From assembly GCF_040253635.1 (NCBI RefSeq), contig NZ_JBEJGX010000003.1, forward strand, positions 3,906,001 to 3,970,000: a DNA stretch of 64,000 bases, read 5' to 3'. This DNA is from Streptomyces sp. Edi2 (GTDB lineage Bacteria; Actinomycetota; Actinomycetes; Streptomycetales; Streptomycetaceae). Positions 49,555 through 55,983 of this stretch are shown here, in pieces (positions within the stretch are counted from its first letter, which is position 1; the number at the start of each line of letters is the position of its first letter). A program made the position numbers and the translations under genes. A model generated the notes under the pieces. It was not told the origin of the DNA. It worked only from the letters and a program-made list of their open reading frames with translations, and made no database searches.

Positions 49555-51132
49555 TTAGAGCAGTGCCCCGGAGGCGAAGCGCAGGACGAGCTGCGGGGCG
49601 CCGGAGAGGGCGATGCCGAGGACGGCGGCGAGTCCGATGGCGGTGGCCAGGGGGGCCGGGACCGCGGTGCGGGCCGGGTGGCCCGCGGGGGCGGGGGTTC
49701 CGCCGGCCCCTGCCGTATCGCCGGTGCTCGCGGCTTCCCCGGTGCTCGCGGTTTCCTCTGCTCCCCGGAAGAGGACCGTGGTCCACTGCAGGTAGTAGTA
49801 GAGCGCGATCACGACATTGACGGCCATGATCACGGCGAGCCAGGCCAGCCCCGCGTCGACGGCCGCGGAGAAGACCGTGACCTTGGCGAACAGGCCGATG
49901 ATGCCGGGCGGCAGTCCGGCGAGGCAGAGCAGGAAGAAGCCGAGGGCGAGCGCCACGACGGGCCGCTGGTGGTACAGGCCCCGGTAGTCGGTGATGCGGC
50001 CCGCGGGGCTGGTGCGGGCCACCAGGGCGGCGACGGCGAAGGCGCCGAGGTTCACGGCCGCGTACATCAGGGCGTAGGCGACGGTGGAGCCGATGGCGTG
50101 CCCCGGGTCGTGGGCGTAACCCGCCGCGGCGATCGGGACCAGGAGGTAGCCGGCCTGGCCCACCGAGGACCAGGCGAGCAGGCGTACGGCGCTGTGCGCG
50201 CGGCGGGGGTCCTGGCGCAGGGCCGCGACGTTGCCGACGGTCATGGTGAGTGCGGCGAGGACGGCCAGTGCCGGGCCCCAGACGTTCGCGTACGAGGGGA
50301 AGCCCCGGACGGTGACGAGGATCAGGCCGGAGAAGCCGACGGCCTTGCCCACCACGGAGAGGTAGCCGGCGATGGGCAGCGGCGCGCCGACGTAGGTGTC
50401 CGGCACCCAGAAGTGGAAGGGGGCGGCGGCCGTCTTGAAGGCGAAGCCGACCAGGGTGAGGGCGACGCCGGCGCTTGCCAGGGTGGCCAGCCGCGGGTCG
50501 GGGAGGTCGGTGAGGGCGTGGGCCACCCGGGAGAGGTGCAGGCTGCCGGTGGCCGCGTAGAGGAAGCTCACGCCGAGCAGCATCACGGCGGTGGCGGCCA
50601 CCGAGGACAGGAAGAACTTGAGGGCGGCCTCGGAGGAGAGCCGGTCGCCGCGCCGCAGGCCGACCAGCGCGAAGGCGGGCAGGGAGGCGACTTCGAGGGC
50701 GATGACCAGGGTGGCGAGGTCGCGGGAGGCGGGCAGCAGGGCGGCGCCTGCCGCCGAGGAGAGCAGCAGGAACCAGTACTCGCCGGCGGGCAGGTCCTGG
50801 TCCTTGAGGGTGTCGATGGACAGCAGGGCGGTCAGCAGCGCCCCGCCGAGCACCAGGAACTGGATGACCAGGGCGAACGGGTCGGCCGCATAGCTGCACA
50901 CGTCCGGGTGGGCGGGCAGGCAGAAGGTGCGGCGGTCGCCGTCCAGGAGGGGCAGCAGGGACAGCGCGGCGAGCGCCAGGCCCGCGGTCGCGATCCACCC
51001 CAGCAACGGCTTGCGGGCCGCCGGGAGGAAGAGGTCGGCGACGAGGATCACCAGGGCGACGGCCGCGGCGAGGGTGGGCGGCGCGAGGGCGAGCCAGTCG
51101 ACGGACTGGACCAGAGAAGTCGCCGTGCTCAT
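49555..51132 (-). CDS. nuoN: NADH dehydrogenase-like subunit N
   Basis: 525 residues with about 14 membrane helices. The conserved lysine lies in FAFKTAAAPFHFWVPDTYVG, and a glutamate in LEVASLPAF is typical of antiporter-like subunits. Last gene of the reduced complex I operon. The ATG overlaps the nuoM TGA (TGATG); a GTG one codon earlier is possible. Confidence 0.94.
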   Translation of the reverse strand: MSTATSLVQSVDWLALAPPTLAAAVALVILVADLFLPAARKPLLGWIATAGLALAALSLLPLLDGDRRTFCLPAHPDVCSYAADPFALVIQFLVLGGALLTALLSIDTLKDQDLPAGEYWFLLLSSAAGAALLPASRDLATLVIALEVASLPAFALVGLRRGDRLSSEAALKFFLSSVAATAVMLLGVSFLYAATGSLHLSRVAHALTDLPDPRLATLASAGVALTLVGFAFKTAAAPFHFWVPDTYVGAPLPIAGYLSVVGKAVGFSGLILVTVRGFPSYANVWGPALAVLAALTMTVGNVAALRQDPRRAHSAVRLLAWSSVGQAGYLLVPIAAAGYAHDPGHAIGSTVAYALMYAAVNLGAFAVAALVARTSPAGRITDYRGLYHQRPVVALALGFFLLCLAGLPPGIIGLFAKVTVFSAAVDAGLAWLAVIMAVNVVIALYYYLQWTTVLFRGAEETASTGEAASTGDTAGAGGTPAPAGHPARTAVPAPLATAIGLAAVLGIALSGAPQLVLRFASGALL

Positions 51133-52829
51133 CACTTACCGCCTCCGAGGAGCTGCTGGACGGCCGGGTCGGTGAGGCCGAGGAGGGCTGCGGGCCACAG
51201 TCCGGCGAGGACGGTGAGGACGGCGAGGGGGGTCCAGGCCGCGTACTCGTAGCGCGCGATGTCGGGGATGACGGGGGCCGGTACGGCCGGGGCCGTGGTG
51301 GCCGCTTCGGCCGCCGTCGCGATGCCCTCCTCGACGGCCGGGGCGGGTTCCACGGCCGCCGGGGTGCCGCCCATGCAGACACGGCGGACGACGAGCAGCA
51401 GGTAGGCGGCGGTCAGCAGGGTGCCGAGGCCGGCCAGCGCCATGAACGTCAGGAAGGCGGGGCGGCTGAGGCCGGCGGCCGGCCGGAAGGCGCCGAACAT
51501 CGCCAGCATCTCGCCCCAGAAACCGGCCAGCCCGGGGAGGCCCAGCGAGGCGACCGCCCCGAAGGCGAGCAGGCCGCCGAAGCGGGGGGCCTTGCCGTAG
51601 AGGGCGGCGCCGGTGCCGTACGGGAGGGGCGCGGCGGAGCCGCTCGTTGAGGGGCGGTGGTCGGGCGACGGGCGGGACAGGGTGTCGAGGTCGGTGCTGC
51701 CGTAGCGGTCCTTGAGGGCGCCGACCAGGAAGAAGAGCAGGCCGGTGATGAGGCCGTGGGCGATGTTGGCGAAGAGCGCGCCGTTGACGCCGGTGGGGGT
51801 CATGCTGGCGATGCCGAGCAGGACGAAGCCCATGTGGCCGACGGAGCTGTAGGCGATCAGGCGCTTGAGGTCGCCCCCCGCGCCCTTGCGTACGAGGGCG
51901 AGGCAGGCGAGCGAGCCGTAGATGATGCCGATGGCGGCCAGCGCGGCGAGGTAGGGCGCGAAGGTGTGCATGCCCTCGGGGGTGATGGGCAGCGCGATCC
52001 GCACGAAGCCGTAGGTGCCCATCTTCAGCAGGACGCCGGCCAGCAGCACCGAGCCGACGGTGGGCGCCGCGGTGTGGGCGTCCGGCAGCCAGCTGTGCAG
52101 CGGCCACAGCGGGGACTTGACGGCCAGTCCGATGCCGATCGCGAGCACCGCCAGGAGCTGAACCGTGTGGCTGAGCTGGGCTTTCGGCCCGTTGTCAGTG
52201 GCGAGTGCCACCATGTCGAAGGTGCCGGATTTCACGCCGATGAGGAGGAGGCCGAGCAGCATCACGACGGAGCCGAGCAGCGTGTAGAGGATGAACTTCC
52301 AGGCCGCCGCCTGCTTTTCCGCGCCGCCCCAGCGGGCGATGAGGAAGTACATCGGGATGAGGACCATCTCGAAGGCGAGGAAGAACAGCATCAGGTCGAG
52401 GACGGCGAAGCTGGCGAGGGTGCCGGCTTCGAGAGTGAGCAGCAGGGCCACAAATGCCTTGGGGGACGGGCCCTTCGGCATGTGGAAGTAGCTGTAGAGC
52501 GCGCAGAGGAAGGTCAGCAGCGCGGTCAGGACGACAAGGGGGAGCGAGATGCCGTCGACGCCGAGGTGGATGCGGATGTCCAGCGCCGGGATCCAGCTGA
52601 TGTCGGTGGTGGCCTGCATACGGGCCGGGTGGTCGTGGTCGAAGCCGGCGGCCAGCGCGAGGGCGGCGGCGAGCACGACGCCGGTGACGGTCACGCCGTG
52701 GCGCAGCACGGCCTGGCCGGGGTTGCGGCCCTTGAGGCCGGGGGGCGCCGGGAGCAGGGCGCCGGCCGCGCCCAGCAGGGGGAGGACGACGACCGCCGCG
52801 AGGAGGTACTGCAAAGCGGTGGGGTTCAC
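51132..52829 (-). CDS. nuoM: NADH dehydrogenase-like subunit M
   Basis: 565 residues with about 14 helices. FEMVLIPMYFL holds the glutamate and AVKSPLWPLHSWLPDAH the lysine that form the proton path. A linker of about 30 residues around 370 is alanine/glycine rich. GTG start with AGGAGGG nine bases upstream, inside the end of the small ORF at 52833-52982. Confidence 0.95.
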   Translation of the reverse strand: MNPTALQYLLAAVVVLPLLGAAGALLPAPPGLKGRNPGQAVLRHGVTVTGVVLAAALALAAGFDHDHPARMQATTDISWIPALDIRIHLGVDGISLPLVVLTALLTFLCALYSYFHMPKGPSPKAFVALLLTLEAGTLASFAVLDLMLFFLAFEMVLIPMYFLIARWGGAEKQAAAWKFILYTLLGSVVMLLGLLLIGVKSGTFDMVALATDNGPKAQLSHTVQLLAVLAIGIGLAVKSPLWPLHSWLPDAHTAAPTVGSVLLAGVLLKMGTYGFVRIALPITPEGMHTFAPYLAALAAIGIIYGSLACLALVRKGAGGDLKRLIAYSSVGHMGFVLLGIASMTPTGVNGALFANIAHGLITGLLFFLVGALKDRYGSTDLDTLSRPSPDHRPSTSGSAAPLPYGTGAALYGKAPRFGGLLAFGAVASLGLPGLAGFWGEMLAMFGAFRPAAGLSRPAFLTFMALAGLGTLLTAAYLLLVVRRVCMGGTPAAVEPAPAVEEGIATAAEAATTAPAVPAPVIPDIARYEYAAWTPLAVLTVLAGLWPAALLGLTDPAVQQLLGGGK

Positions 52830-52832
52830 GGG

Positions 52833-52982
52833 TCAGGCCCTCCTGCGGGTTTCGGCTCCGGCGAGCCCGGCCACGAGGGGCGTCGGCTGGGGGTGCGGGG
52901 TGCGGCCATCAGGGGTGCGGGCGCCAGGGGTGCGGCCATCGGGCGTACGTGCACCAGGGGTGTGCGGCATAGGCATCGGCAT
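52833..52982 (-). CDS. 49-codon repeat ORF between nuoL and nuoM
   Basis: Read directly from the minus strand: ATG at 52982, stop TGA at 52835-52833. It is separated by CCC from the nuoL stop (TGA-CCC-ATG) and by CCC from the nuoM start (TGA-CCC-GTG). The product starts MPMPMPH, has two exact copies of TPGARTPDGR, and ends LVAGLAGAETRRRA. Third positions are about 78 percent G/C, lower than nuo genes but coding-like. The nuoM Shine-Dalgarno lies in its last codons, so translation would be coupled. No known family. It may be a translated peptide, a spacer that evolved to keep coupling, or a repeat expansion. Confidence 0.5.
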   Translation of the reverse strand: MPMPMPHTPGARTPDGRTPGARTPDGRTPHPQPTPLVAGLAGAETRRRA

Positions 52983-52985
52983 GGG

Positions 52986-54983
52986 TCAGGCTCCCGTGCC
53001 CGTGGCGACGAGGACGGCGGCGACGGCCAGGACGAGCGAGCCCGCGAGCAGCGCGGCGAGGTAGGTCTGCACGTTTCCGGTCTGGGCGCGGCGGACCGCG
53101 GCGCCCAGCAGGCGGGGGGCGGCGCCCGCGCCGCGGACGTAGGTGTCGACGACCGCGCGGTCGAGGAAGCGGACGAGCGTGGCCGCGGCGCGTACGGGCC
53201 GGACGAAGAGGGCGGAGTAGACGGCGTCGAGGTGGAAGCCGACCGCCGCATGACGCTGCAGCGGGCCCAGGAGGAGGCGGCCGGGGTCGGCCGGGTCCGG
53301 GGCGGCGGCGTTGTCGCCGTAGGCCGGGGCGTGGGTGTCGATGGCCACCTCCTCGGCGAGCGCGGGGGTGGCGTCCGGAGCGGCGACGACCGCGCCGAGG
53401 GGGATGCGGGCGGCGAGCGCGGTGGTGTGCCGCCAGGCCGCATAGGTGACCAGGCCGCCGACGAGGGCGGTACCGGTGCCCAGGACGGAGGTGGTCAGGG
53501 TCGGCGCGAGCGAACGCCCGTCGAACCAGCCGGGCAGGAAGGGGGCGGCGAGGCCGAGCGCGACGGTCGGGAGGAAAAGCACCCACAGGACGGCGTTCAT
53601 GGCGACCGGCTGCGGGCCGTGGGCGGGGGCTTCGGCGCCCTTGCCCTTGAAGACCAGCAGCCACAGGCGGGTGGCGTAGGCCGCGGTGAGGAGGGCGGTC
53701 AGCAGTCCGGAGACCAGCACGGTCCAGCCGGCCGCGCCGGGGATGCCGTGCGCATGGCCGGTGGCGGCGTGTTCGGCGGCGCCCAGGACGGCTTCCTTGG
53801 AGAAGAAGCCGGCGAACGGCGGGATCGCGGCGAGCGCCAGCAGCGCCACGGTGACCGTCCAGTAGGCGTCCGGGATGCGCCGGGCCAGGCCGCTCATCCG
53901 GGACATGGCGGCCAGCGAGTTGGTGCCGGCGGCGTGGATGATCACGCCGGCGCCGAGGAAGAGGAGGGCCTTGAACGCACCGTGCGAGATGAGGTGGAAG
54001 ACGGCGGCACCGCGGTCGCCGACGGCCAGGGCGCCGAGCATGTAGCCGAGCTGTCCGACCGTCGAATAGGCCAGCACACGCTTGATGTCGTCCTGGGCCA
54101 GTGCGGCCAGCCCCGAGCCGACCATGGTGAGCGCGGCCATGACGGCGAGCACGACCAGCGCGGCCGCGGAGGCGGCGAAGACGGGGAGGAGACGGGCCAC
54201 GAGATAGACACCGGCCGCCACCATCGTCGCGGCGTGGATCAGCGCCGAGACGGGCGTCGGGCCGGCCATCGCGTCGGGGAGCCAGGTGTGCAGCGGGAAC
54301 TGCGCCGACTTGCCCGCGACACCGGCCAGCAGCAGCAGCGCGATCAGCGTCGGATGGTCCAGGCCGCCGGCGGCGACGGAGCCGAGGATGCCGGTGATCC
54401 GGAAGGTCCCGGCATCGGCGGCCAGCGCGAAGATGCCGAAGAGGAAGGGGACGTCGCCGAGCTTGGTGACGAGGAAGGCCTTGAGGGAGGCGGCGCGGGC
54501 GGCCTCGGTCTCCCAGTAGTGGCCGACGAGGAAGTAGGAGCAGATGCCCATGACTTCCCAGCCGACCAGCAGCAGCATCAGGTCGCCGGTGTAGACGACC
54601 AGCAGCATCGCGGAGGTGAAGAGCGAGACCAGCGCCGCGTAGGAGGGGTAGCGCGGGTCGTCGCGCAGATAGCCGGTGGAGTAGATCTGCACACAGGTCG
54701 CCACGACGCCGACCAGGACGGCGATCAGCGCGGCGAAGCCGTCGATGTGCAGGGCCAGGTCGATGGGGATCGAGCCGGTCGGGGTGAGCTCGGTGGCGAT
54801 GTCGGTGGCCGGCCCTGTGCCCTGTCCGAGGGCGACGGCCACGGTGAGCGCGGCCGCGGCCAGCGTCGGCAGCACGGCCAGCGGCCGGACGAAGCCGGGC
54901 GCCCGCCGGCCCAGGAGGAGACCGGCGACGGCCCCGAGGAAGGGCAGGAGGGGAACGAGAACGGCGGTGGTGGTGAGGGTCAC
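52986..54983 (-). CDS. nuoL: NADH dehydrogenase-like subunit L
   Basis: 665 residues with about 16 helices. [14 protein letters not shown] carries the conserved glutamate and [17 protein letters not shown] the lysine. The C-terminal part contains the long amphipathic connection region. GTG start overlapping the nuoK stop by four bases (GTGA). Confidence 0.95.
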
Positions 54984-55342
54984 GCGGCGGCCTCCGCCGT
55001 GGTGTCCGGCTGCGGGTCCCCGTCCGCAGCGCCCGTCTTCTCGGCGAGATCGCGGAGCCGGTCGATGTCGGAGCTGCCGCGGTTGCGGTAGACGAGCAGC
55101 ACGATCGCCAGGCCGATGCCGATCTCGGCGGCGGCGATCGCGATGGTGAAGAGGGTGAGGGCCTGGCCGGTGTGCAGGGTGTCGCGCAGCCAGACGTCGA
55201 AGGCGACGAGGTTGAGGTTGACGGCGTTGAGCATCAGCTCGACGGACATCAGCACCAGGATCGCGTTGCGGCGCGCGAGCACGCCGTACAGCCCGGTGCA
55301 GAAGAGGAGGACGGCGAGGACGGCCGGGTAGACGAGATGCAT
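54980..55342 (-). CDS. nuoK: NADH dehydrogenase-like subunit K
   Basis: 120 residues. The glutamates of [11 protein letters not shown] and [11 protein letters not shown], essential for pumping in other bacteria, are present. A C-terminal extension of about 25 residues is hydrophilic. ATG overlapping the nuoJ stop (TGATG). Confidence 0.95.
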
Positions 55343-55983
55343 CAGCGCTGCTCCTCTCGCGGGGCGGGGGCGGCGGGGGCCCGGGAGGCGGCAGGGGCCG
55401 GCGAGGCGGCGTTGTGGAGACCGGCCGCAGCGGACCGCTCCTCCCCCGTCCTGCGGGACAGCACGATCGCCCCGACGAGCGCGGCCAGCAGCAGCACGGA
55501 CAGCGCCTCGAAGGGCAGCACCCAGTACTGGAAGAGGCTGCGTCCGGAGGCCTCGGTGGAGCCCTGGGCGGCGCCCTCGAAGCTGATCCAGGTGGTGCGG
55601 AAGGCATCCACGACGACCCAGACCAGGGCGGCGGCCGAGGCGAGGGCCACCGCGAGCGCGGCCCAGCGGTTGCCCGAATCGGCGTCCGGGGAGCGGCCGA
55701 TGGGCGCCTTGGTGAGCATCAGCCCGAAGAGCAGGAGGACGACGACGGAGCCGACGTAGATCAGCACCTGCACCCAGGCGATGAACTCGGCCGTCAGCAG
55801 CAGGTATTCGACGGCGATCCCGCCGAGCGCGACGACCAGCCAGAGGGCGGCGTGCACCAGCTGCCGGGTGGTGACGGTGATGACGGCCGCGCCGAGGGTG
55901 GCGATCCCGACGAGGAGGAAGGCGATCTCGACACCGGAGGTCGAGAGGAAACCGTGGCCGGCTGCGGTGGCGGCGAGCGTCAC
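55342..55983 (-). CDS. nuoJ: NADH dehydrogenase-like subunit J
   Basis: 213 residues with five helices. The TM3 block [20 protein letters not shown] is typical. The C-terminus is alanine/proline rich. GTG start with GGGGAGGG upstream and a four-base GTGA overlap with nuoI. Confidence 0.94.

Follow-up and report, generated by a model that had tools for sequence, protein, structure and literature searches.

In the genome of Streptomyces sp. Edi2 a small open reading frame (ORF) fills the gap between the genes nuoL and nuoM, and the locus raises the question of whether this ORF encodes a peptide, merely separates the two genes, or hands ribosomes from the one to the other. The window, i.e. the whole stretch of DNA that was analysed, comprises 64,000 nt (contig NZ_JBEJGX010000003.1, positions 3,906,001 to 3,970,000). 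NuoL, NuoM and NuoN were identified using NCBIfam, and the features at the junction, in window coordinates, are as follows.

51132..52829, minus strand: nuoM, GTG start 3 nt past the ORF stop (NCBIfam NDH_I_M, E 9e-160)
52827..52884, minus strand: presumed second, diverged copy of the nuoL 3' end/nuoM start junction, placed by the general anatomy of the element; direct similarity weak
52833..52982, minus strand: candidate relay cistron, 49-codon ORF, from the sequence and from the open frame shared by all 21 loci with an insert
52838..52844, minus strand: nuoM Shine-Dalgarno AGGAGGG within the ORF, read from the sequence
52885..52912, minus strand: dispersed hairpin element, eroded core with 5 mismatches to the 24 specified bases
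52897..52962, minus strand: 15/30-nt tandem repeats encoding the TPGARTPDGR copies (TRF)
52983..52985, minus strand: spacer CCC from nuoL stop to ORF start, 3 nt (2 nt in relatives with a GTG start)
52986..54968, minus strand: nuoL, conserved part (NCBIfam NDH_I_L / PRK06590.1, best stretch from residue 214-216 of an 873-aa frame)

The ORF (52982..52833, ATG to TGA, 49 codons) has the predicted product MPMPMPHTPGARTPDGRTPGARTPDGRTPHPQPTPLVAGLAGAETRRRA*. At its upstream edge the TGA of nuoL (52988-52986) is followed by CCC and then the ATG; at its downstream edge the TGA (52835-52833) is followed by CCC and then the GTG of nuoM (52829-52827). The initial annotation had described a complete ATG-TGA frame filling the gap, and its coordinates and CCC spacers are correct, the strand being minus. 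The two exact copies of TPGARTPDGR that it had noted are present in tandem, and the ORF does end over the nuoM ribosome site, since its final sense codons, AGG AGG GCC, overlie the Shine-Dalgarno region, of which all five bases of AGGAG are invariant in an alignment of 19 sequences. The tandem repeats represent a local expansion; codon listing and alignment showed that they are not found in the relatives L116 and L008, which have an ORF of 93 nt. The 3' end of nuoL, with a Shine-Dalgarno GGGAG at 52995-52991, constitutes the first junction copy. A search for known RNA families gave no match at the nuoL-nuoM junction. The nuoL frame (window 52986-55607) is open for about 210 codons 5' of the conserved NuoL start, and the annotated nuoL start may therefore vary.

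From comparison of related loci, we consider that the ORF was probably made by insertion of a hairpin element with duplication of the junction, and that it probably stayed open as a translational relay.

The nuoM loci compared were the best 80 listed from named genomes, plus further genomes of the genus and family. These gave 128 distinct loci with both nuoL and nuoM, a sample of the closest NuoM relatives rather than of all nuo operons, in which a few strains are possibly counted twice (L004/L124, L009/L091 and L005/L089 are identical at the junction). Two loci with no nuo genes (L002, L003) were left out before the junction count, and the window locus (L001) was merged with L084. The nuoL-nuoM gap is 2-14 nt in 107 of the 128 junctions, where its length depends on which of two near nuoM starts is chosen; that most nuo operons have nothing at this position, as initially stated, thus holds among the closest NuoM relatives. 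An insert of 88-171 nt is present in 21 junctions, all from close relatives and 19 of them distinct as ORFs. Every one of the 21 has an ATG or GTG 2-3 nt past the nuoL stop and a TGA 2-4 nt ahead of nuoM, and what goes beyond chance is this comparative finding: the edges of the frame are fixed in 21 of 21 insert loci despite variable length. The initial proposal was to be given up if relatives sharing the operon did not conserve the frame; the insert itself is absent at the 107 junctions, and the frame is kept wherever the insert exists.

The main rival to a relay is that nuoM is initiated independently, at its own strong AGGAGG. The insert would then be a non-coding spacer or RNA element, acting, if at all, through a hairpin or a stronger Shine-Dalgarno sequence, and the frame would be open as a by-product, owing to high G+C and to duplication of the start and stop. 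This is an unlikely explanation with several points in its favour. Openness of the ORF alone is not significant, as half (50%) of 5000 Markov draws matched to the dinucleotide make-up of the window ORF had no in-frame stop; the AGGAGG ahead of nuoM is canonical; and a hairpin CGGGGG-CCGA-CCCCCG is found in several relatives, with the Shine-Dalgarno sequence paired in some folds. This pairing is, however, not common to all folds, and a Shine-Dalgarno-sequestering hairpin was rejected as a conserved feature; the hairpin is broken in L009, L127 and L088 and eroded in the window. The lengths of the insert ORFs also stand against a by-product: 93 nt (14 loci), 81 nt (two loci), 84, 141, 150, 162 and 165 nt, all seven divisible by three, while the spacers on either side shift by single bases. 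Part of this in-frame variation comes from tandem units of 15 or 24 nt, lengths that are divisible by three in any case. Furthermore, stops occur in frame +1 in 13 and in frame +2 in three of the 19 distinct inserts, and in the ORF frame in none.

An accessory peptide was one of two roles offered by the initial annotation. That the ORF encodes a functional micropeptide serving complex I or the assembly of that complex, with selection acting on its amino-acid sequence, is very improbable. The complete frame in all insert-bearing loci would suit such a peptide, as would a common AGAETLRRA-like C-terminal end, and for Streptomyces sp. 2224.1 a 51-aa version (76% identical) already carries the annotation 'hypothetical protein'. 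The conserved C-terminal end, however, is the nuoM Shine-Dalgarno sequence, and the middle part of the ORF is unalignable between groups. The suggested check for synonymous-site bias gave a pN/pS of 2.07 among 10 distinct 93-nt copies with GTG start (2.21 without the last four codons), against 0.32 in the first 30 codons of nuoM and 0.21 in the last 30 codons of nuoL; purifying selection on the amino-acid sequence was not found in these 10 copies. Pairwise differences at codon positions 1, 2 and 3 number 186, 217 and 69, so that the third position varies least, the reverse of coding constraint. Typical Streptomyces genes have a GC content by codon position of about 0.8, 0.5 and 0.94; the neighbour genes show 0.87/0.48/0.94 and 0.76/0.54/0.94, and the ORF 0.77/0.73/0.83, which is not the pattern of a Streptomyces gene. 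The reading frame is conserved and the peptide sequence is not, and the peptide is probably meaningless.

The insert is dispensable, and sister species with the same operon are without it. A tree of 48 rows with nuoL and nuoM (20 with the insert) requires at least five gain or loss changes, and two sister pairs with full support differ in its presence (L127 with, L120 without; L122 with, L093 without). The short junction TGA-CC-GTG is found in the outgroup and in several in-group lineages.

That ORF and nuoM were once one longer, upstream-extended protein, later cut by a stop, is hardly credible: the ORF does share the nuoM frame in the window and the 93-nt relatives (TGA-CCC-GTG), but in L122, L125 and L126 its distance to nuoM is 2 or 4 nt, the frames differ and the ORF is still open, and is thus not tied to the nuoM frame, the outgroup NuoM begins at the present start, and a fused form is found in none of the 128 relatives.

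The relay reading draws on a repeat that is found well beyond the nuo operon. BLAST of the 98-nt insert of one relative matched the nuo junction in 10 of 11 genomes, and the 5' half of the insert (about 50 nt) matched other places as well, e.g. with 88% over 51 nt in G311, a genome itself without the nuo insert. The whole insert as a multi-copy mobile unit was rejected, as full-length matches in the genomes searched lie at the nuo junction alone; in L064/G064 the full-length match is split by an internal expansion. A plasmid origin was likewise rejected (no plasmid match in sensitive mode). A core pattern of 28 nt was found at 90 places, six of them the nuo insert itself, in 21 of 24 Streptomyces genomes, and the reversed control pattern at none; a stricter 39-nt pattern gave just 7 places, spread over 6 of 21 genomes. 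When genomes were drawn from the whole class, core matches turned up in 42 of 296 (control, 0), comprising 21 of the 28 genomes of the window's genus and 21 of 268 elsewhere. The element is dispersed genus-wide, with 0-16 copies per genome at the stringency used, and its consensus, CnGCnnTnTCCCGGGGGACGACCCCCGGACCCCC(A/G)GCCG, is an imperfect palindrome of about 40 nt whose boundary positions are weakly defined. Nine element or relative loci had no match to a known RNA family at E up to 1. At L150 (G191:C5:212450-213250) the element is apparently inserted at the start codon of a presumably glycosidase-like gene, judged by sequence, and encodes an in-frame N-terminal extension; at L154 it lies at a guanylate-kinase-like start.

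The element is linked with duplication of its target. Direct repeats across the element (local score of at least 40) were found at 49 of 90 flanked places and at 0 of 129 random places. An enlarged set gave 96 of 170, compared with 3 of 367 random places; it was limited to element places having at least 300 nt of flank, and covered part of the class-wide places. Among the 96, 61 have an upstream copy that stops 9-11 nt short of the core; in 14, mostly tandem arrays, it runs right up to the core. Where a single element has a sharp boundary (49 cases), a period of 86 or 92 nt is commonest (range 62-166).

At 16 single-element places the stop codon of one gene lies in copy 1 and the start of the next gene in copy 2. 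Fifteen of these are ATGA or GTGA overlaps, with a period of 86, 89, 92, 95 or 98 nt, and at all 15 a frame of 29-33 codons joins both genes. A duplication period of 2 mod 3 keeps such a relay frame open, and this value is found in 15 of 15 ATGA/GTGA places against 12 of the 34 others (Fisher 1.7e-5), where values of 2, 0 and 1 occur in 12, 12 and 10 places, respectively. The 15 places belong to three junction families (tldD-tldE, eight; an ABC junction, six; one more, one). In the two larger coupled families the period varies by multiples of three alone (86, 89, 95; 92, 98), and in uncoupled clusters it does not vary by threes (88, 89, 133, 135, 136; 62, 102, 111, 114, 115; 99, 100, 102). An overall excess of 2 mod 3 (27/49, p 0.0014) was discarded because the places are not independent (per orthologous cluster 9/22, p 0.29), and the excess is kept solely as a contrast between coupled and uncoupled junctions. 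Tandem elements have spacings of 2 mod 3 in 14 of 23 cases.

A fresh copy of the element with the same anatomy lies in the window's own genome (L205, G000:C3:2075183), where the junction CCTGGAGCTCACGGGCAAGGAGCTGCGCGCATGA is doubled letter for letter around the hairpin. The duplication is perfect over 34 nt and contains an ATGA stop/start junction; an ORF of 31 codons runs from the first ATG to the second TGA, exactly between two genes, the upstream one of which we take, by sequence, to encode an ABC-type ATPase. Empty and filled sites are found side by side: in 14 genomes of the clade this locus is filled in five, is a single junction without the element in eight, and takes another form in one, G137. 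In the last (L321, G137:C1:2250185-2250810) the ABC junction is duplicated without a hairpin, leaving an open frame of 16 codons, and may represent a footprint after hairpin loss or an intermediate. The site in G294 is filled with two units in series.

For tldD-tldE, an even pick of 40 of 143 tldE places was sampled, 37 resolved by script and three by eye. Of the scripted cases, 33 junctions are empty and four filled; by eye, L374 is filled, and L379 and L380 are without an adjacent tldD. All five filled cases have open frames of 29 codons, L366 having two in series. In L379 (G064:C1:2102441-2103241) tldE is preceded by the hairpin and by the second copy of the 3' end of tldD, as if tldD had been lost or moved. 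Two hairpin units in series, at L322 (ABC junction) and L366, give two successive relay ORFs, each of which overlaps the next start by ATGA. At the ATGA junctions, the two copies of one genome are more alike than those of different species, a pattern suggestive of gene conversion or of insertions that recurred recently at these sites.

The nuoL-nuoM inserts fit this anatomy in part. In 13 of 19 distinct inserts the core starts 10 nt after the ORF start codon, which equals the general boundary, and in 10 of 19 it has 0-1 mismatches of 24, against 5 in the window. The end of the second junction copy is expected as GGAG-GCC-TGA-CC-GTG and is present as GGAGGGCCTGACCCGTG. The duplication at nuoL-nuoM is eroded. 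An ungapped period of 95 is the best of 71, as expected, at just 2.6 SD above the mean; the pooled similarity of the copies was reached by 0 of 500 column shuffles and by 23 of 500 codon shuffles; and once the stop/start region is left out, the similarity vanishes in the 98-nt group (reached by 100 and 228 of 500 shuffles) and what remains of it in the ATG group is weak. Six of the 170 places are nuo copies, and with scores of 21-34 all six stay below the threshold of 40; the nuo element has the opposite orientation to that in the 15 ATGA cases.

The ancestral junction would have read ...GGGAGCCTGACC-GTG(nuoM), as it still does in relatives with a gap of 2 nt. A hairpin repeat of about 40 nt may have entered directly past the nuoM start codon, and on its entry about 55 nt (the end of nuoL and the start of nuoM) would have been duplicated, the first copy retaining the nuoL end and the old nuoM start, and the second giving the start that nuoM now uses, along with a new Shine-Dalgarno sequence and a new stop. 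The ORF would then extend from the former nuoM start codon as far as this stop, and the TPGARTPDGR repeats would be a later tandem expansion of element-derived sequence. According to a published study (PMC10666635), an intergenic distance of about 20 nt nearly abolishes reinitiation in E. coli and H. volcanii, and studies with a much longer reinitiation reach are cited there. Where reinitiation fades within about 20 nt, an insert of 98-171 nt would uncouple NuoM unless ribosomes can cross it. A ribosome finishing NuoL might restart at the ORF, end 2-4 nt ahead of nuoM and restart there, and such a relay would keep NuoL and NuoM synthesis coupled over a gap otherwise too long for termination-reinitiation. 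Of the two roles initially offered, the coupling spacer is thus the one that agrees with the frame, edges and 2-4-nt spacings of all 21 inserts and with the other coupled junctions.

Two known kinds of structure are involved, namely coupled cistrons and dispersed palindromic repeats. In termination-reinitiation overlaps (ATGA, TGATG) a stop and the next start lie within a few nucleotides, as they do at the ends of the ORF; what differs here is a third, meaningless cistron that apparently carries the ribosome over the inserted DNA. REP, REPIN and BIME sequences and bacterial MITEs are similarly small, non-coding imperfect palindromes with several intergenic copies per genome. Target duplications of MITEs are a few bases long; the Streptomyces element differs in its low copy number and in target duplications of tens of bases. 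The Rickettsia palindromic elements (RPE) are also short dispersed palindromes tolerated in frame with translation (PMC10969869); they are about 150 bp long and lie in-frame inside genes, whereas the Streptomyces element is about 40 nt long, lies mostly at or near junctions and has its target duplicated, and the nuo insert ORF sits between nuoL and nuoM with its own stop.

Among the open-licence papers searched there was no description of the hairpin element or of the nuoL-nuoM ORF, which is weak evidence of novelty, and no mention of a relay cistron across an inserted segment. The ORF was initially called 'undescribed'; one relative's version, the 51-aa protein given above, is already annotated. 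Two Streptomyces RNA studies that name nuoL/nuoM treat antisense RNAs on the second nuo cluster (PMC3765725, PMC8388888).

The general mechanism is of more interest than the one ORF. We tentatively propose, as a possibility short of a firm claim, that Streptomyces harbours a mobile hairpin of about 40 nt, so far unrecognised, whose entry doubles tens of bases of the target, and that insertion at a coupled junction may restore both genes and create a relay cistron whose frame must stay open; such relays might stack, persist once the hairpin is lost (G137) and last longer than the element itself (nuoL-nuoM). If this is true, many 'hypothetical small proteins' at operon junctions of Streptomyces would be such scars, and insertion would provide a route to the birth of a new ORF between essential genes, conserved in frame and free in sequence, with the warning that frame conservation alone is no proof of a functional peptide. 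A hairpin with a long target duplication would be a peculiar mobile element for a genus of industrial importance, and related genomes offer empty and filled sites for its study. Sister species with and without the insert would provide a natural test of the distance over which ribosomes can be passed along an operon.
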